Shown piece after piece: positions 10,398 to 19,586 of a stretch of 64,000 bases of DNA. The notes under the pieces are model-generated. The model was given only the letters and a program-made list of their open reading frames with translations, searched no databases and was not told the origin of the DNA. Made by a program: the position numbers and the translations under genes. The stretch's first letter is position 1. Each line of letters opens with the position of its first letter. The stretch lies in assembly GCF_004570845.1 (NCBI RefSeq), contig NZ_SPQZ01000007.1, positions 62,001 through 126,000 of the forward strand, given 5' to 3'. The DNA comes from Orlajensenia leifsoniae (GTDB taxonomy: Bacteria > Actinomycetota > Actinomycetes > Actinomycetales > Microbacteriaceae).

Positions 10398-10507
10398 GAT
10401 GCATCCCTTTCGTCGTCTCAACGTTATCGCTCGGTGCGAATGCGCAGCAGGGGTATTCTTTGCGAGGCATATCGTCTAGTGGGGCGGGCCGAGTGGAGGC
10501 TCGCGGA

Positions 10508-11674
10508 ATGAAGACGGCGCTCATCGGAGCGGGTCTCCTCGGGGTCGGAGCCGTCGCGCTGGCGACAGGCATCCTGCCCGCCGACGAGGCTGTCGCCCTC
10601 TGGGATCGGGTCTGGCCCGTGCTCCTGTTCGTCCTCGCCATGACGATCGTGACGGAGTTGGCTGACGAGGCCGGACTCTTCGACTGGCTCGCCCAGCACG
10701 CCTCCACCTGGGCGCACGGGCGCTCGTGGCTGCTCTGGCTCATCGTCGTCGCCCTCGCCACCGTCTGCACGATCTTCCTGTCGCTCGACACGACGGCGGT
10801 CCTGCTCACACCGGTCGTCATCGTCATGGCGCGCCACGTCGGGATCAGTCCGCTGCCGTTCGCCCTGACGACGGTGTGGCTCGCCAACACGGCGTCGATG
10901 CTGCTGCCCGTCTCGAACCTCACCAACCTGCTCGCCGTCTCGAAGCTCGAGCAGATCGTGGGGCATCCGGTGAGCCCCCTCGAATTCGCCACCCTCACGT
11001 GGGCTCCGGCCATCGCGGCGATCGTTGTGCCCGTCGCCGTCATCGCCGTGCTCCACCGTCGCAGCCTCGTCACGCGGTACGTCATCGAACGACCCGAGCG
11101 CGTCGCCGATCCGACACTGCTGATCGCGAGCGCCGTGGCGGTCCTCATCCTCATCCCCGGCCTGCTCTCCGGTCTGCCCGTGTGGATTCCGGCCTGCGTG
11201 GCCGCCGTGACCCTGCTCATCGCCTTCGCCGTCTCGAGACCGGCAGTGCTCCGGCTCGGGCTGGTGCCCTGGCCGCTGCTGCTGCTCGTCGCCGGCCTCT
11301 TCCTCGTGCTCGAGACAGCGCACGCTCTCGGGCTGGGAGACGCTCTCGCCGCGGTCGCGGGCACGGGAGACGATCCGCTCAGCCTGCTGCAGCTCGCAGG
11401 CCTCGGGGCCGGAGGCGCGAACGTCGCCAACAACCTGCCCGCCTACCTGGCGCTCGAGCCGTCGGTCGACTCGCCGGCCCGCATGATCGCCTTGCTGATC
11501 GGCGTGAATGTCGGCCCGCTCGTCACGCCCTGGGCGTCGCTGGCCACGCTGCTCTGGCACGACCGCCTCAAGGCGATGGGCGTCGAGTTCACGTGGTCGC
11601 GGTACGCGATCCTCGGGTTGGTCGTAGCACCCCTCGCCGTCGTGGCCGCCACGGCCGCGCTCGCGGTCCGGTGA
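10508..11674 (+). CDS. ArsB/SLC13-type ion transporter superfamily permease
   Basis: 388 residues, ten or more hydrophobic segments. Motifs fit the ArsB/NhaD/CitM group: SLDTTAVLLTPVVIVMAR, ANTASMLLPVSNLTNLL in the first half and GGANVANNLPAYLAL in the second, the paired re-entrant loops of this superfamily. The ATG at 10508 has TGGAGG upstream; an earlier ATG at 10460 has no ribosome binding site. No arsenic genes are nearby, so substrate (arsenite, or a dicarboxylate or other anion) is undetermined. Confidence 0.82.
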   Translation: MKTALIGAGLLGVGAVALATGILPADEAVALWDRVWPVLLFVLAMTIVTELADEAGLFDWLAQHASTWAHGRSWLLWLIVVALATVCTIFLSLDTTAVLLTPVVIVMARHVGISPLPFALTTVWLANTASMLLPVSNLTNLLAVSKLEQIVGHPVSPLEFATLTWAPAIAAIVVPVAVIAVLHRRSLVTRYVIERPERVADPTLLIASAVAVLILIPGLLSGLPVWIPACVAAVTLLIAFAVSRPAVLRLGLVPWPLLLLVAGLFLVLETAHALGLGDALAAVAGTGDDPLSLLQLAGLGAGGANVANNLPAYLALEPSVDSPARMIALLIGVNVGPLVTPWASLATLLWHDRLKAMGVEFTWSRYAILGLVVAPLAVVAATAALAVR

Positions 11675-11759: not shown

Positions 11760-12380
11760 ATGCCTGCAGAACCTTCGGTCTCCGCGCGCGCCAAGCCCAG
11801 CGACGAGCTTCAGGCCGTCGCCCTCGAACAATTCGCCACCCGGGGCTTCTCGGGAACGTCGTTGCAGCAGATCGCCGACGTCGCGGGCTATTCGAAGTCG
11901 AGCGTGCTCTACCACTTCGCATCCAAGGAGGCCCTGCTCGACGCCGTGCTCACGCCGGCGATCGACGAGTTCGGGCGCATCCTCGACGCCTGGATCTCCG
12001 ATGCGTCGACGGATGCCGCCCGCCAGGCCTTCCTCGAGGCCTTCGTCGACCTGCTCCTGCGCTATCGCCTCGAGGTGCACACCTTCATCAGCCAGGGCCA
12101 GTCCCTCGAGGACGTTCCCGTCGTCGCCCGGGCCAACGCCACGATCCTGCGCATGGCGGAGGCGGTCTGCCCGCCCGAGGCCAGCGTCGAGGATCGCCTG
12201 CGCTTCGGCATCGCCCTCGGCGGCGCCGCCTACACCCTGACCGCCGACCTGACCTTCGGCAGCGGGATGACCACCGACGACGCGGCGACAGACGTCGAGC
12301 TGCGTCCGGCACTGGTGCACATCATCTCCGAGCTCCTCTCCCCGGTTCCGGCTCACGCCGTGCCGGCTTCGACCCGATAG
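11760..12380 (+). CDS. TetR family regulator of the MMPL/YhgE operon
   Basis: 206 residues. DNA-binding domain: AVALEQFATRGFSGTSLQQIADVAGYSKSSVLYHF at residues about 18-52. It heads a three-gene operon: nine bases to the MMPL gene, which overlaps the YhgE gene. No Shine-Dalgarno sequence is seen; the -10-like TACCGT six bases upstream suggests a leaderless transcript. Likely represses its own operon through the palindrome at 11732-11745. Confidence 0.9.
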   Translation: MPAEPSVSARAKPSDELQAVALEQFATRGFSGTSLQQIADVAGYSKSSVLYHFASKEALLDAVLTPAIDEFGRILDAWISDASTDAARQAFLEAFVDLLLRYRLEVHTFISQGQSLEDVPVVARANATILRMAEAVCPPEASVEDRLRFGIALGGAAYTLTADLTFGSGMTTDDAATDVELRPALVHIISELLSPVPAHAVPASTR

Positions 12381-12389
12381 GACACTCCC

Positions 12390-15299
12390 GTGGCCACTTT
12401 CCTCTACCGCGTCGGACACTTCGCCTTCCGCCGAGCCTGGCTCGTGGTCGCCGTCTGGGTCGCGCTGCTCGTCGGCATCCTCGGCGGCGGTCTCGCCCTC
12501 GGCGGCCAGACCCAGGAGTCCTACGCTATTCCGGGCACCGAGTCGCAGGAGGCCATCGACAAGCTCGCCGCGGTCTTCCCGCAGACCGCCGGCGCCTCCG
12601 TCCAGGTGGTCATGCAGGCCCCGGAGGGGGAGACCGTCACCGACGACGCGCACAAGGCGGCCATCGAGTCGATGGCGACGCAGCTCGAGGACATCGACGG
12701 AGTCGAGTCCGTGCTCGACCCCTTCGACGAGTATGCGGGCAACGCCGTCTCCGACGACGAGCGCACCGCATACACGCAGGTACAGCTCGATTCCCCGTCG
12801 ACGGATGTCGCCCCTGAGACTCTCACCGCCATCCAGGACACGGCGGAGACCGGCGAGGACGCCGGCCTCGATGTGGCCTTCGGCGGCCAGGTGTTCCAGG
12901 ACCAGACCTTCGGGCTCACCATCACGGAGGGTCTCGGCGTGCTGTTCGCCGGGGTCGTGCTGTTCATCGCCTTCGGGTCGCTGCTGGCGGCCGGCATGCC
13001 CCTGTTCACGGCGCTCATCGGGGTCGGCGTGGCCGTCGCCGGTGTCACCGTCGTCTCGGCGTTCACGCCGGTGTCGAGCACGGCACCCATGCTGGCGGTG
13101 ATGCTGGGCCTCGCGGTCGGCATCGACTACGCGCTGTTCATCCTGTCGAGACACCGCAATCAGCTCGCACGCGGCGAGACGCCCGAGGAGTCGGCCGCCA
13201 CCTCGGTGGCCACGGCGGGTTCCGCCGTGATCTTCGCCGGCGTGACCGTCATCATCGCTCTGCTCGGCCTCCTCGTGGTCGGCATCCCGTTCCTCAGCAC
13301 CATGGGCATCGCAGCGGCCTTCGCCGTCTTCGTCGCCATGATCGCCGCGGTCACCCTGCTTCCGGCGGTGATGGGCATCTTCAAGGGGCGACTCATCCCG
13401 AAGCCGAGCAGCCGCGCCGCCCGCCGGGCGGTCGCGGCCGATGATGCGAAGCCCACCATGGGCCGACGTTGGGTGAACCTCGTGTTGAAGGCACCTGTCG
13501 TGGCGGTCGTGTTGGTGGTCGGCATCCTGGGCGGACTCGCCATCCCGGCCCTCAGCCTCGACCTGAACCTGCCCTCGGGGGCGAGCGAGCCCGAGGGCTC
13601 CACGACGCGTGACGCCTACGAGATGCTCTCCGAGGGCTTCGGTCCCGGGTACAACGGCCCGCTCATCGTCTCGGTCGACATCACGCAGACCACCGACATC
13701 CTCGACGACCTCGATGCGATCGGCACCGAGCTCGGCGCGCTCGACGGCGTGGCCGAAGTCGGTCAGGGCATCCCGAACGCCTCGGTCGACACCGCCATCA
13801 TCCGCGTGATCCCCGAGACGGCACCGGATGATCCGGCCACCAAGGTGCTGGTGCAGGAGATCCGCGATCTCGCGCCCCACATCGACGACGAGTACGGCAC
13901 CCCCATCACGGTGACCGGTGCCACGGCCGTGTCCATCGACATCTCCAACCGGTTGACGGATGCCCTGGTGCCCTTCGCCCTCGTGGTCGTCGGGCTGTCG
14001 GTGCTGCTGCTCATGATGGTGTTCCGCTCGATCTTCGTGCCGATCAAGGCCGCGCTCGGCTTCCTGCTCTCGGTGTTCGCCGCCATCGGAGTCTCCGTCG
14101 CGATCTTCCAGTGGGGCTGGTTCGCCGACCTGCTGCACGTGGAGACGACGGGCCCCATCCTGAGCTTCCTCCCGATCCTGCTGATGGCCGTGCTGTTCGG
14201 CCTCGCCATGGACTACGAGGTCTTCCTCGTGTCGGGCATGCGGGAGGAGTACGTGAAGACGAAGGACCCGCGCGGATCGATCGTGCACGGCTTCCGGCAC
14301 TCCGCCCGAGTGGTGACCTCGGCGGCTCTCATCATGTTCTTCGTGTTCTTCGCCTTCGTGCCTGAGGGCAGCGGACCGATCAAGGGCATCGCCCTGGCGC
14401 TCGCCGTCGGCGTCGCGTTCGACGCCTTCCTCGTGCGCATGACCCTCGTGCCCGCAGCCATGGCGCTCGCCGGCCGCGCGGCCTGGTGGCTGCCGAAATG
14501 GCTCGACCGTATCCTTCCCGATGTCGACATCGAGGGCGAGCACCTGCGTCATCACCTGACGGATGCCGCATGGGCGCGCACCGAGGACGCCGCGATCTCC
14601 TCGGTCGACGCCACCTTCGGGATCGAGGACGCCCCCATCGGTCCGCTCGATCTGAGGGTCCCTGCCGGCGACGTGCTGCTGGTCACCGGCGACGCCGCCG
14701 ACCGTCGGGTGGTCTCCGCCACCCTGGCCGGTCGCCTCGCACCGGTCTCCGGACGCCTGCAGGTGCTCGGATCGCCGCTACCGTCGGAGAGCGGCAGGGC
14801 GCTGCGTCGAGTCGCGCTCGTCGACATCGCCGCCGGGGAGGCCGCCTTCGGCGACCGCACCGTGGGCGAGGTGCTCTCGGAGCGCATCGACCTCGGCCAG
14901 CCCTGGTATCGCGCCAGCACCATCGACTCGCAGGTCCGCCGATGGATCGGCCAGATCCGCACGGCTCTCGCCGACGACCCGCAGTCCGAGCGGGTTCAGG
15001 CCGAGACGCAGATCTCCTCGCTCGACAGCCTCGAGCGCTCGGCCGTGCTCGTCGCGGCCGGTCTCTCCGAGCGACCCGGTGCCCTCGTGGTGGAGCTCGG
15101 CGACGACCTCCCCTCCGAGGGAGCCGCCGACGAGCTCATGCTCATGATCGGCGCTCTCGCCCCCGTGGCGACGACGATCGTGCTGACGGCGGCCGGAGTC
15201 GAGGCCCCGGTCGGTCTCGGAATTCGCGGCGTGCACGCCGTGGCGCTCGCCGACAGGACACCATCCTCCCTCTCGAACAGAAAGGCCGTGCTGCGATGA
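12390..15299 (+). CDS. MMPL family transporter with degenerate ABC-ATPase-like C-terminus
   Basis: 969 residues. The first ~720 form a standard MMPL/RND pump: helix at 12-35, extracytoplasmic domain, a five-helix block with VGIDYALFILSRHRNQL at residues ~245, a second external domain and a second five-helix block with AMDYEVFLVSGMREEY. Residues ~750-960 look like an ABC nucleotide-binding domain that has lost its catalytic residues: GDVLLVTGDAADRRV where a Walker A should be, SSLDSLERSAVLVAAGL at the signature position and ALVVELGDD at the Walker B. The GTG start follows tetR by nine bases; the stop overlaps the next gene (ATGA). Probably exports lipids or an envelope-active compound. Confidence 0.9.
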   Translation: MATFLYRVGHFAFRRAWLVVAVWVALLVGILGGGLALGGQTQESYAIPGTESQEAIDKLAAVFPQTAGASVQVVMQAPEGETVTDDAHKAAIESMATQLEDIDGVESVLDPFDEYAGNAVSDDERTAYTQVQLDSPSTDVAPETLTAIQDTAETGEDAGLDVAFGGQVFQDQTFGLTITEGLGVLFAGVVLFIAFGSLLAAGMPLFTALIGVGVAVAGVTVVSAFTPVSSTAPMLAVMLGLAVGIDYALFILSRHRNQLARGETPEESAATSVATAGSAVIFAGVTVIIALLGLLVVGIPFLSTMGIAAAFAVFVAMIAAVTLLPAVMGIFKGRLIPKPSSRAARRAVAADDAKPTMGRRWVNLVLKAPVVAVVLVVGILGGLAIPALSLDLNLPSGASEPEGSTTRDAYEMLSEGFGPGYNGPLIVSVDITQTTDILDDLDAIGTELGALDGVAEVGQGIPNASVDTAIIRVIPETAPDDPATKVLVQEIRDLAPHIDDEYGTPITVTGATAVSIDISNRLTDALVPFALVVVGLSVLLLMMVFRSIFVPIKAALGFLLSVFAAIGVSVAIFQWGWFADLLHVETTGPILSFLPILLMAVLFGLAMDYEVFLVSGMREEYVKTKDPRGSIVHGFRHSARVVTSAALIMFFVFFAFVPEGSGPIKGIALALAVGVAFDAFLVRMTLVPAAMALAGRAAWWLPKWLDRILPDVDIEGEHLRHHLTDAAWARTEDAAISSVDATFGIEDAPIGPLDLRVPAGDVLLVTGDAADRRVVSATLAGRLAPVSGRLQVLGSPLPSESGRALRRVALVDIAAGEAAFGDRTVGEVLSERIDLGQPWYRASTIDSQVRRWIGQIRTALADDPQSERVQAETQISSLDSLERSAVLVAAGLSERPGALVVELGDDLPSEGAADELMLMIGALAPVATTIVLTAAGVEAPVGLGIRGVHAVALADRTPSSLSNRKAVLR

Positions 15300-17215
15300 G
15301 CGCGCGACTCGACAGCCTCTTCGGACGCACCCGCTCCCAGCGACGCTGGCGCTTCGGAGCCATCATCGTGGGCGTCCTGGTCGTCCCGCTCGCCGTGGCC
15401 GGCCTGGTCACCGGCGGCCTCGCCAGCGCGAACGACCGGCTCGACACCGTTCCCGCCCTCATCGTGAACAACGACGAGATGGTCACGGCGACGGCAGCGG
15501 ACGGAACCGAGACGCAGATCCTCGCCGGACGCCTGCTGGTGACCCAGCTCACCGACCCCGACGACGCGGGATTCGACTGGCAGCTCTCCAACACCGATGA
15601 GGCGACGGAGGCACTCGAGGCGGGAACGGCCTACGCCGTGCTCACCATCCCGAACGACTTCTCGGCATCGATCAACTCCATCTCGGGATCCGATCCGCAG
15701 CAGGCCGACCTCAACATCCGCACCGACGACGCCCACTCCTACCTCGCCGGTTCGGCCGCCCAGTCCGTGGGCGGGGCGATGACCGATGCCTTCGGTCGAG
15801 CCATCACCGAGCAGTACCTCAAGGGCTTCTACGCCAACCTGGCCGGCATGGGTGGCTCCCTGTCCTCTGCCGCCGATGGGGCCACGAAGGTGTCCGACGG
15901 CGTCGCCAGCCTGGCCGGAGGCCTCGACCAGCTCGCATCAGGCGCATCGTCGGCTGCATCCGGGGCAGCGGATGCGGCATCCGGAGCCGATCAGTACTCC
16001 AGCGGCGTCGCCGACTACACGAACGGCGTCGACGGACTCGCAGGCGGCATCGGCGAGCTGAACGCCCAGGCCGGCGGTCTCGACGGGATCTCCGACGGCG
16101 TCGGCTCCTACGTCGGGAACGTCGCTGCGACATCGACCGGCTTCACCCAGCTGAACGGCGCTCTGTCGGCAGCTCTTCCGCCAGGCCCGCAGGGCGATGC
16201 CCTTCGATCGGAGTTGGCGAAGGTCGACGCCGGCCTCCAGGCCCTCGCTGCCGGCGGGCAGACACTCGCGCAGCAGACCACTGGCGGAATCGACGGCCTC
16301 CAGTCCGGCATCGCCTCCCTCGCCACAGGGGCGAGCCAGCTCTCGGGCGGATCCGCCGCCCTGCGCGACGGCGCCGACAACCTCGCCAGCGGGGTCGGCT
16401 CGCTCTCCGACGGCCTGTCGACGCTGTCGACCGGAACAGCCACCAGCGCCTCGGGGGCGCACCAGCTCGCCGACGGCGCAGGCACCCTGGCGACGGGACT
16501 CACCGACGGCGCCACCCAGGCCTCCGCGATCGGCGACATCGACGCCGACAAGACGGCGAGCGTCGTCTCCCAGCCCGTGACCGTCAGCACCGACCGCGAC
16601 AACCCGATCGAGACGATCGGCGAGGTGATCGGCATGGTGTTCGTTCCCGTCGGGCTCTGGATCGGCGCCCTCGCGATCTTCCTGCTGCTCCGACCGATCA
16701 CCGCGACGGCGCTGCAGAGCACGGCCTCCACCCGGCGTCTCGTGATGCGCTCGCTCGCCCGGGCGGCCGGACTCGCCATCGCGCAAGCCGTGCTCGTGGT
16801 CGCCCTGCTCCACACCGTGCTCGGAGTCACATGGGAGACGCTGCCCGCCACCCTGTCGTTCGCCGTGCTCATGGCGCTCGCGTTCGCGGCGATCCACCAG
16901 TTCCTCACGGTGGCGTTCGGTCGCGTCGGCATCGTGATCTCTTTGCTGCTCGTGATCGTGCAGCTCACCTCTGCCGGCGGCATCTACCCGGTCGAGATCC
17001 TGGCGGTGCCCTACCAGGTCATCACCCCGTACCTGCCGCTCACCTGGGCCGTGCAGGGGATGCAGCAGATCATCGCCGGCGTGGGCGGAGCATCCGTCGC
17101 CGCCGCAGCCGGAGGCCTCGCGGCGCTCGGCCTGCTCGCGCTGCTCGGATCCCTCGTGGCGGTGGCGCGCAAGCGCGGCGCCCGATCCTGGGGCTTTGCA
17201 CTCGCCCGGGGGTGA
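15296..17215 (+). CDS. YhgE/Pip family membrane protein
   Basis: 639 residues. One N-terminal helix (residues 20-42), then a long external domain rich in ASGA/DGVASLAGG repeats (about 190-400, predicted helical heptad-like repeats typical of YhgE/Pip), then about five C-terminal helices. The start ATG overlaps the MMPL stop by 4 bases, so the two are translationally coupled and probably form one export complex. The family includes phage infection protein Pip and the type VII secretion component EsaA; no type VII genes are visible here. Confidence 0.88.
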   Translation: MSARLDSLFGRTRSQRRWRFGAIIVGVLVVPLAVAGLVTGGLASANDRLDTVPALIVNNDEMVTATAADGTETQILAGRLLVTQLTDPDDAGFDWQLSNTDEATEALEAGTAYAVLTIPNDFSASINSISGSDPQQADLNIRTDDAHSYLAGSAAQSVGGAMTDAFGRAITEQYLKGFYANLAGMGGSLSSAADGATKVSDGVASLAGGLDQLASGASSAASGAADAASGADQYSSGVADYTNGVDGLAGGIGELNAQAGGLDGISDGVGSYVGNVAATSTGFTQLNGALSAALPPGPQGDALRSELAKVDAGLQALAAGGQTLAQQTTGGIDGLQSGIASLATGASQLSGGSAALRDGADNLASGVGSLSDGLSTLSTGTATSASGAHQLADGAGTLATGLTDGATQASAIGDIDADKTASVVSQPVTVSTDRDNPIETIGEVIGMVFVPVGLWIGALAIFLLLRPITATALQSTASTRRLVMRSLARAAGLAIAQAVLVVALLHTVLGVTWETLPATLSFAVLMALAFAAIHQFLTVAFGRVGIVISLLLVIVQLTSAGGIYPVEILAVPYQVITPYLPLTWAVQGMQQIIAGVGGASVAAAAGGLAALGLLALLGSLVAVARKRGARSWGFALARG

Positions 17216-17357: not shown

Positions 17358-19586
17358 ATGGTCGTGCTGTCCAACCGCCTGCCCGTCGACCACGTCGTGA
17401 ACTCCGACGGGTCCTCCGGCTGGAAGTCGTCGCCCGGCGGCCTCGTCACGGCTCTCGAGCCCGTGATGCGCGCAGCCGAGGGTGCCTGGATCGGCTGGGC
17501 CGGTGTCGCCGACACCGAGTTCGCGCCCTTCGAGAACGACGGCATCGAGATCATCCCCGTTCCCCTCAGCGAGTCCGAGATCGAGCAGTACTACGAGGGC
17601 TTCTCCAACGACACCCTGTGGCCGCTCTACCACGACGTCATCGCCCCTCCGCAGTACCACCGGGAGTGGTGGGAGGCCTACGTGCAGGTCAACCGGCGCT
17701 TCGCCGAGGCCGCCGCCCGCTATGCGGCCACCGAGGCCGTCGTCTGGGTGCAGGACTACCAGCTGCAGCTCGTTCCCGAGATGCTGCGCGAGCTCCGCCC
17801 CGACCTCGTCATCGGGTTCTTCGACCACATCCCGTTCCCGCCGTACGGCATCTTCTCCCAGCTGCCGTGGCGCAAGCAGATCCTCAAGGGTCTTCTCGGC
17901 GCCGACGTCATCGGATTCCAGCGGGTGGCGGATGCCGGCAACTTCACCCGCGCCGTGCGCCGCCTCTTCGGCTTCACGACCCGCGGCAACGTCGTCGAGG
18001 TCATCGGCGATGACGGCGACGTGCGCCACGTCGTCGCGCGCACCTTCCCCATCTCGATCGACGTCGCCGGCTACGAGGAGATCGCGGCTCGGCCCGAGGT
18101 GCAGGAGCGGGCCCGCCAGATCCGCCACGACCTGGGCGACCCGAAGGTCGTCATGCTCGGCGTCGACAGGCTCGACTACACCAAGGGCATCGGCCACAGG
18201 CTCAAGGCCTTCGGCGAGCTGCTCGCCGAGAACCGGCTCCAGGTCGAGGACGTCACCCTCGTGCAGGTCGCCAGCCCGAGCCGCGAACGGGTCGCCACCT
18301 ACATGGCCCTCCGCGACGAGATCGAACTGCAGGTCGGCCGCCTCAACGGCGAGTTCTCCACCATCAGCCACAGCGCGATCGCCTACCTGCACCACGGCTA
18401 CCCCCGCGAGGAGATGGTGGCGCTCTACCTGGCCGCCGACGTCATGCTCGTCACCGCCCTCCGCGACGGCATGAACCTCGTGGCGAAGGAGTACGTGGCG
18501 TGCCGGGCCGACAACACCGGGGTGATGGTGCTCAGCGAGTTCGCCGGAGCCTCCGACGAGCTGCGGCAGGCGATCATCGTGAACCCCCACGACATCGCCG
18601 GCCTGAAGGACGCCATCGTGGCCGCCGTCGAGATGCCGAAGCGGGAGCAGGCCCGACGGATGCGGGCACTCCGCAAGACCGTCAACGGCAACACCGTGAA
18701 CGACTGGTCGAAGTCGTTCCTCGACACCCTCACCGGGCGTGCAGCGGTTCCGCGAGGCATTCCCGAGACCCTCGTCAACGCCCTCCGCGAACTCGCAGCC
18801 GCCGATGAGCTCCTCATCGCCCTCGACTTCGACGGCACCCTCGCCCCGCACGTCGACCAGCCGGAGGACGCGCGCGCTCTCGACAGCGCCCGGGACGCGG
18901 TTCTCCGCCTCATCCGCCTCGCCGACACTCGTGTCGCGTTCGTCTCCGGGCGTGCCCTCGTCAGCCTGCAGCACGTGGCCGACCCGCCGGAGGACGTGCT
19001 GCTCACGGGCTCGCACGGCGTCGAGCTCAAGCTCGACCAGCCCGACGTCACCCTCGACCTGCTCGCCAGCGAGATCGACAGGCTCGATCACGTGGCCGGC
19101 ATCCTCGAGCGCATCGCAGGTTCGGCCGAAGGCGCATGGGTCGAGCGGAAGCCTGCGGGCCTGGCTCTCCACACCCGCCTGCTCTCACCTGCGGCGGGGC
19201 AGAGCCTGCAGCGCAGCGCCCGCACCCGTGTGCGCTCCGCCGAGCCCGGACTGACGGTGCGCGAGGGAAAGAACGTGATCGAGTTCGCGCTGCGCCCCGG
19301 CAACAAGGGCGACGCCATCGCGAAGCTCCGCGAGCACACCGGTGCCACGAGCGTCTTCTACGCCGGCGACGACGTGACGGATGAGGACGCCTTCGTCGCC
19401 CTGGGAGCCGACGACCTCGGGATGAAGATCGGCCAGGGACGCACGGCGGCAGGACACCGAGTGCGCGGCCCCGAGGAGGTCGCCGAGGTGCTCGCGCTGC
19501 TGGCCGACTTCCGTGCCGGGTTCCTCCAGGCGCAGAAGCGCGAGCGGGCGTACACCGGATCGAATCCGATCGTCACCGAGTCCTGA
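17358..19586 (+). CDS. otsAB: bifunctional trehalose-6-phosphate synthase/phosphatase
   Basis: 742 residues from the first ATG. OtsA domain 1-~470: VVLSNRLPVD, PGGLV, FFDHIPFPPYGIF, VDRLDYTKG and DGMNLVAKEYVA, the glycosyltransferase family 20 motifs for UDP-glucose and glucose-6-phosphate. OtsB domain ~480-742: DFDGT with Asp490 nucleophile, VSGR, and AGDDVTDEDAF, the HAD phosphatase motifs. Together they make trehalose from UDP-glucose and glucose-6-phosphate in the cytosol. The first ATG has no ribosome binding site and falls where homologues are already inside the first strand; AAAAGGA at 17298-17304 points instead to ATC at 17313, giving 15 more residues. Confidence 0.93.
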   Translation: MVVLSNRLPVDHVVNSDGSSGWKSSPGGLVTALEPVMRAAEGAWIGWAGVADTEFAPFENDGIEIIPVPLSESEIEQYYEGFSNDTLWPLYHDVIAPPQYHREWWEAYVQVNRRFAEAAARYAATEAVVWVQDYQLQLVPEMLRELRPDLVIGFFDHIPFPPYGIFSQLPWRKQILKGLLGADVIGFQRVADAGNFTRAVRRLFGFTTRGNVVEVIGDDGDVRHVVARTFPISIDVAGYEEIAARPEVQERARQIRHDLGDPKVVMLGVDRLDYTKGIGHRLKAFGELLAENRLQVEDVTLVQVASPSRERVATYMALRDEIELQVGRLNGEFSTISHSAIAYLHHGYPREEMVALYLAADVMLVTALRDGMNLVAKEYVACRADNTGVMVLSEFAGASDELRQAIIVNPHDIAGLKDAIVAAVEMPKREQARRMRALRKTVNGNTVNDWSKSFLDTLTGRAAVPRGIPETLVNALRELAAADELLIALDFDGTLAPHVDQPEDARALDSARDAVLRLIRLADTRVAFVSGRALVSLQHVADPPEDVLLTGSHGVELKLDQPDVTLDLLASEIDRLDHVAGILERIAGSAEGAWVERKPAGLALHTRLLSPAAGQSLQRSARTRVRSAEPGLTVREGKNVIEFALRPGNKGDAIAKLREHTGATSVFYAGDDVTDEDAFVALGADDLGMKIGQGRTAAGHRVRGPEEVAEVLALLADFRAGFLQAQKRERAYTGSNPIVTES

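Follow-up and report, generated by a model that had tools for sequence, protein, structure and literature searches.

An MMPL transporter of Orlajensenia leifsoniae that ends in a pseudo-ABC domain and is encoded next to a YhgE/Pip protein

We analysed a 64,000-nucleotide stretch of the Orlajensenia leifsoniae genome (contig NZ_SPQZ01000007.1, positions 62,001 to 126,000 of the forward strand), referred to here as the window. On its plus strand, a gene with a GTG start at positions 12390..15299 encodes a 969-residue transporter of the MMPL (RND) type whose C-terminal part, called the tail below, has the predicted fold of an ATP-binding cassette (ABC) ATPase and has lost the motifs for catalysis. 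The gene overlaps that of a 639-residue YhgE/Pip protein (15296..17215, plus strand). The interpretation that we favour, and regard as somewhat probable, is that YhgE is an ABC-2-type permease and that the tail derives from its nucleotide-binding partner, which became joined to an MMPL pump in a single fusion, was deprived of its ATPase site and now serves for docking or coupling between the proton-driven pump and YhgE.

Fold and decay of the transporter tail

The initial annotation had read the order of an ABC ATPase domain into residues ~750-960. Pfam gave nothing meaningful when run on the single sequence of residues 721-969, the ABC model being without a match, and short matches of the tail to UPF0147 and SRE_fam (E about 0.03) were dismissed as chance. 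A phmmer search of the tail against the PDB returned seven matches with E from 0.05 to 0.55, every one of them an ABC protein, and a profile of 54 tail relatives matched ABC proteins at E 7e-6 and weaker (best 60 of 183 matches). AlphaFold2, run on the tail with 54 rows, produced a model with a predicted local distance difference test score (pLDDT) of 92.0 and a predicted template modelling score (pTM) of 0.89. When this model was compared with the PDB by Foldseek, the best match had an E of 2.4e-11 and ABC ATPase subunits and transporters dominated the 50 matches listed. Alignment to FtsE (6z4w) by VIA-align gave Z 19.1 over 206 aligned residues with a root-mean-square deviation (rmsd) of 2.7, and all 998 chains aligned from the Foldseek top 1000 reached Z >= 8. 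Since the results of AlphaFold2, Foldseek and VIA-align agree, we regard the ABC fold of residues 732-956 (14583..15257) as settled to the extent that a prediction allows. The order seen in the initial annotation was thereby borne out, and the structural matches, whose lack it had named as a reason to give up the idea, are clearly ABC. Chance similarity is excluded by these three methods together with the hhalign comparison described below. A linker helix, residues 716-731 (14535..14582; helix 2-16 of the AlphaFold2 tail model), leads from the last membrane helix to the ABC-like domain and is immediately preceded by the highly conserved segment PKWLDRILPDVDIE.

In the family, 135 of 199 genomes had a match to the tail, and in the order 233 of 396; these counts include free-standing ABC proteins, ordinary ones too. 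Conservation was examined in two partly overlapping sets. The family set of 81 tails consists of the window and 80 family loci chosen from the matches listed for a long open frame (one frame is cut by a contig end), YhgE being no criterion. The named set of 80 tails represents the best 80 of 362 loci and includes Leifsonia, Glaciibacter, Cryobacterium, Agromyces, Salinibacterium, Clavibacter and others. Fused tails were seen in two forms: 71 of the 81 family-set tails are full, while 10 are short and devoid of the helical and signature region. As judged by reading, the short form is also that of 18 of 20 order-wide fused loci.

The Walker A region of the window's tail reads GDAADRRV (14688..14711) and has no GK[ST]. 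The pattern GxxxxGK[ST] was likewise absent from all tails searched (0/81 in the family set, 0/80 in the named set and 0/20 among the order-wide fused loci). The GK step is occupied by R772 and R773, which are found in 69 and 62, respectively, of the 71 full-length fused relatives; because both arginines are conserved, the motif was evidently replaced and not scrambled. At the signature position the segment ISSLDSLER (15012..15038) takes the place of LSGGQ, with L878 in 71/71 and R883 in 61/71 full-length relatives, and a loose LSGGQ expression matched one of the 81 tails (LSSGH in locus L084, position unverified) compared to six of six canonical controls. The degenerate Walker B, ALVVEL (15081..15098), carries E902-L903 in the window. 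Among the 71 relatives, position 902 is Asp in 61 and Glu in eight, whereas Glu at position 903 is outside the eight commonest residues, which account for 65 of them. No His is present at residues 930-938 of the tail, i.e. the switch His is gone. By these motifs the tail is catalytically dead. The missing Walker A Lys and LSGGQ of the initial annotation were thus confirmed and extended to the family. Its claim of a lost Walker B DE pair holds for the window and for the catalytic Glu, but not for the Asp, which most relatives keep. We also looked in close homologues for active-site residues at shifted positions, and there were none.

The high conservation of R772/R773 is unlike random decay and would also suit a tail that serves as a nucleotide or metabolite sensor, binding ATP, ADP or a phosphate ligand without hydrolysis and switching the pump, with the arginine pair in place of the lysine. 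The retention of the Walker B Asp in 61/71 relatives points in the same direction, as does GK[ST] in five fused and nine of 30 free-standing relatives (see below). Nevertheless, we consider such a sensor rather unlikely, given that the P-loop lysine is gone from all 81 family-set tails, that the window has lost the Walker B Asp as well, and that a sensor alone leaves the constant YhgE neighbour unexplained.

In two near pairs, the ratio of nonsynonymous to synonymous substitution rates (dN/dS) of the tail was 0.12 and 0.24, indicating purifying selection on the coding sequence. A frameshift or pseudogene was ruled out by the family-wide conservation together with dN/dS below 1. It seems improbable that the tail is a relic, i.e. 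a tolerated passenger whose job was lost after the fusion while YhgE acts alone. A relic would fit the observations that evolution is faster in the tail than in the MMPL body, that an entire subdomain is gone in the short class, and that G115, a fused match of the family (E 2.6e-7), was flagged with an internal TGA. The dN/dS of the tail is nonetheless well under 1 in the near pairs, several residues are invariant family-wide, the predicted fold is compact and confident, and among the family matches listed none with E 1e-8 or better contains an internal stop.

YhgE and its ABC-like partners

The YhgE/Pip (phage infection protein) family takes its name from a part played in phage infection. The window's YhgE belongs to it, scoring 109.0 for TIGR03061 (cut-off 96.15) and 160.1 for TIGR03062 (cut-off 102.2). 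The initial annotation had suggested from the gene overlap that this protein is coupled to the transporter. At the gene level the suggestion was upheld and can be widened: all 80 family loci contain both the MMPL gene and YhgE, and in the named set MMPL was present in 80/80 and YhgE in 79/80 loci, the remaining locus ending at the contig. The stop of the MMPL gene and the start of YhgE share an ATGA of 4 bp (15296..15299, plus strand). The same offset was found in 58 of the 74 named loci where the start was placed by script, and the two genes are likely to be translationally coupled. The YhgE gene as called is narrower than the complete 909-residue open frame, which starts at 14486. Loci with short tails (L099, L102-L110 and 18 of L211-L230) keep YhgE wherever the contig permits.

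The AlphaFold2 model of YhgE was of moderate quality (pLDDT 78.9, pTM 0.52). A first membrane helix at residues 13-51 is followed by a predicted outer part in which two helices of 145 and 117 residues (149-293 and 298-414) form a long stalk, residues 149-414 (15740..16537), which is also matched by the heptad-repeat model TIGR03057. The membrane domain, residues 441-638 (16616..17209), aligned to ABCG2 (6hco) in VIA-align with Z 17.4 over 214 residues and an rmsd of 3.8. Of the sequence models for ABC-2 proteins, PF12698 (ABC2_membrane_3) scored 58.7 over its cut-off of 31.6, while PF01061 remained under its cut-off (20.6 vs 26.9). Foldseek with the complete YhgE retrieved mainly long helical and coiled-coil proteins, and a YhgE profile gave 47 matches in the PDB, most of which are coiled coils; a single ABC-2 domain was among them, marginal at E 0.59. 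By sequence and predicted fold, the membrane part of YhgE is ABC-2-like. Proteins of the ABC-2 kind are reported among the homologues of PIP (PMC3924187). In the cytosolic loop of YhgE, L473 is invariant and S475, T476 and A477 are conserved at 91-96%.

To what extent YhgE has ABC-like partners was judged in a class sample of 148 genomes. The search listed 35 YhgE genes with E <= 1e-25, spread over 31 of these genomes, weaker YhgE falling outside the sample. All 35 genes had an ABC-like gene or domain upstream. For 25 of them the neighbour was matched by coordinates, four of these being fused to MMPL, and the other 10 had an ABC-like open frame upstream with E from 3e-24 to 9e-8 (from a small frame set). 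The ABC-2-like nature of YhgE and the ABC-like partners across the class, both missed by the initial annotation, offer an explanation for the origin of the MMPL tail. One of the 10 YhgE genes just mentioned belongs to a second YhgE operon in the genome from which the window was taken (L264:1071-4359, contig C3, minus strand). It comprises a TetR gene (by reading), a free-standing pseudo-ABC protein with AETERRPT in the P-loop region, and YhgE; no MMPL match was found within the 11 kb fetched.

The free-standing relatives of the tail show the same association, as all 20 that were fetched from the better order-search matches precede a YhgE gene. A profile of such YhgE-linked ABC proteins matched the tail profile in hhalign with a probability of 99.9% and an E of 4.8e-31. 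Scores for the Pfam model ABC_tran (cut-off 25) fell from the free-standing to the fused forms: four free-standing proteins tried reached 32.9-45.8 bits, two short fused tails came just under the cut-off at 22.1 and 24.5 bits, and of four long fused tails one scored 14.8 bits and three were without an ABC match. Nine of the 30 free-standing relatives in the tree set keep GK[ST], while the other 21 carry Arg there as judged by reading. LSGGQ was present in none of these 30 partners compared to six of six canonical controls. Because 21 of the 30 carry Arg for Lys, it may be usual in the class for YhgE to have a pseudo-ATPase as its partner. Loci L196-L200 and L243-L250 contain free-standing partners with GSGRT/S, in which Arg replaces the Walker A Lys. 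Five MMPL fusions from the class-wide search (L237-L240 and L242) have an intact GKT at the aligned, unshifted Walker A position, are without LSGGQ and have YhgE downstream of them. These five fusions suggest that nucleotide binding may have existed early in the lineage.

A tree was calculated from 23 full-length fused tails (group fused A; 21 of the 71 family rows plus L225 and L226), 26 short fused tails (fused B; 8/10 from the family and 18/20 order-wide), five lysine-bearing fused tails (fused K), 30 free-standing relatives (19 of the first 20 plus 11 more) and six canonical ABC proteins; the rows omitted include L203, L253 and the near copies L105 and L108. The YhgE-linked domains split from the six canonical proteins with support 100/100, and all 54 fused rows formed one clade (98/88). 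Within this clade the five lysine-bearing fusions were sister to the other 49, which lack the lysine and grouped at 100/98; inner placements are unsure owing to some long branches. As the fused clade is single and its GKT-bearing branch is sister to the rest, these sequences are most simply explained by a single fusion event, after which the lysine was lost once. With the natural series from free-standing GKT and free-standing GRT to fused GKT and fused dead forms, it can be asked how a pseudo-ATPase acquires a structural role.

The pump and the proposed MMPL-YhgE machine

Residues 1-715 constitute an ordinary pump. PF03176 covers two stretches with 301 bits, and both halves carry, besides an MMPL domain, an Asp-Tyr (DY) pair, as found in RND/MMPL proteins. 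Asp246-Tyr247 (13125..13130) is DY in 80 of 81 aligned proteins, with a gap in the remaining one, and Asp608-Tyr609 (14211..14216) is DY in 81/81. From work on MmpL3, we take these putative proton relays to be the proton carriers of the pump. The protein is not an MmpL3 orthologue (NF052608 219.8 bits, cut-off 1400). It has the two MMPL modules and the DY pairs in common with the RND transporters MmpL3 and MmpS5-MmpL5. MmpL5 is reported to bind AcpM, a cytosolic partner, and an outer coiled-coil tube is proposed for it (PMC12501195, PMC12346298). The tube proposed for MmpS5L5 (PMC12501195) parallels the YhgE stalk. Unlike MmpL3 and MmpL5, the pump described here ends in a pseudo-ABC domain, and it is for its partner YhgE, not for the pump itself, that a long helical stalk is predicted.

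According to the interpretation that we favour, the tail descends from the nucleotide-binding subunit of YhgE-type transporters. In the sampled actinobacterial class, this ABC-like subunit of YhgE is encoded just upstream and is usually degenerate itself. In one lineage it became fused, once, onto the cytosolic C-terminus of an MMPL pump. The P-loop lysine then disappeared, but the domain retained its fold and its association with YhgE. Because the YhgE fold is ABC-2-like, and from what is generally known of ABC transporters, the tail can be placed beneath the YhgE membrane domain, at the usual site of a nucleotide-binding domain. Candidate contacts are the tail segment TVGEVLSERID (14859..14891), picked out by group conservation, and YhgE residues 473-477. 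E831/R832 of this segment were the commonest residues in the fused A (0.70/0.87), fused K (1.0/1.0) and free-standing (1.0/0.87) groups, and the segment is kept in both dead and P-loop-bearing versions. The dead domain, for which the initial annotation had envisaged regulation or docking, would hold YhgE on the MMPL protein by physical docking and relay proton-driven movement of the pump to it. The YhgE stalk would guide the substrate outwards, so that MMPL and YhgE might together make up one exporter of an envelope lipid or lipophilic compound.

Several observations weigh against this interpretation. The YhgE loop 465-478, taken as a whole, has a mean conservation of 0.68, lower than that of the preceding helix (0.76) and of residues 542-597 (0.75). 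Correlated divergence between tail and YhgE, given MMPL, was 0.58 and did not clearly exceed the controls, in which the tail was paired with OtsAB (0.54) or TetR (0.44), in 61 of the 80 loci (a variant without these controls covered 69/80). In the two near pairs the dN/dS of the tail exceeded that of the pump about fourfold, and in one far pair the factor was 1.6. Moreover, the short class is without the helical and signature part expected to face YhgE, yet YhgE is kept. Finally, the five fused relatives with the P-loop lysine suggest that for some members of the family the binding of a nucleotide may be of importance.

A stronger version of the interpretation is that the engine has been swapped, i.e. 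that proton force drives the ABC-2 permease YhgE by way of the dead adaptor, and that actinobacterial YhgE/Pip proteins are generally ABC-like with pseudo-ATPase partners; this we put forward as a tentative idea, conceivable and still doubtful. If true, proton-driven RND pumps and ATP-driven ABC transporters would be joined in one complex, and the poorly understood YhgE/Pip proteins would be recognised as permeases of the ABC-2 type, each with an ATPase partner of its own that is in most cases degenerate.

With regard to known systems, the YhgE membrane domain resembles those of ABC-2/type V exporters such as ABCG2, ABCG5/G8 and ABCA1 (ABCA is among the matches listed), and the tail has the fold of their nucleotide-binding domain. 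Here, in contrast, that domain is dead by sequence and is carried by a separate pump of proton-driven type. TmrAB, TAP and MRP1 likewise contain an ABC domain that has lost catalytic residues and is kept for structure, and they retain one complete nucleotide site per dimer. TAP and TmrAB were among the PDB matches of the tail. Since exporters that pair a degenerate with a live ABC domain exist, the tail might similarly pair with a live ABC ATPase encoded elsewhere, in which case the complex would still burn ATP. We judge this very improbable: no second ATPase gene was found among TetR, MMPL, YhgE and the adjoining genes. The tail also differs from the domains of TmrAB, TAP and MRP1 in that all key motifs are gone, and because P-loop and signature are both lost, neither composite site would be complete. 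The free-standing YhgE partners are without LSGGQ too. Among the literature matches listed, none dealt with a fusion of MMPL to ABC or with an ABC protein as partner of YhgE, subscription journals being mostly outside the coverage. The component families are known, while their combination is new.

Neighbouring genes and substrate hints

Directly downstream of YhgE lies a bifunctional OtsA-OtsB gene for trehalose-phosphate synthase/phosphatase (17358-19586). A trehalose-phosphate synthase gene follows on the same strand, 0.1-2.5 kb from YhgE, in 69 of the 80 named loci; it is missing in eight that have room for it, and three could not be judged. Among loci L191-L268, whose flanks are limited, the window's own copy (L232) was the only one with this gene beside it, apart from a partial match in L208. 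The linkage possibly hints at a trehalose-linked substrate, or it may reflect plain local gene order, since it is nearly absent from these latter loci. In Saccharopolyspora hirsuta exposed to cholesterol, genes of neighbouring number annotated as YhgE/Pip and MMPL were up 3.82-fold and 3.33-fold, respectively, among 28 genes listed (PMC9782250). The trehalose-phosphate synthase gene and the cholesterol response together hint weakly at envelope lipids or lipophilic compounds.

Upstream of the transporter gene, a TetR-type regulator is encoded at 11760..12380 on the plus strand (Pfam TetR_N, 52.6 bits). A TetR match was present in 78 of the 80 named loci, and the gene neighbourhood suggests that the operon may be under TetR control, as the initial annotation had proposed. 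Further upstream, the window contains a gene for an ArsB-like anion transporter (10460-11674) whose score lies under the curated cut-offs; a match to an ArsB-like transporter was found in 38 of 160 loci of the relatives.

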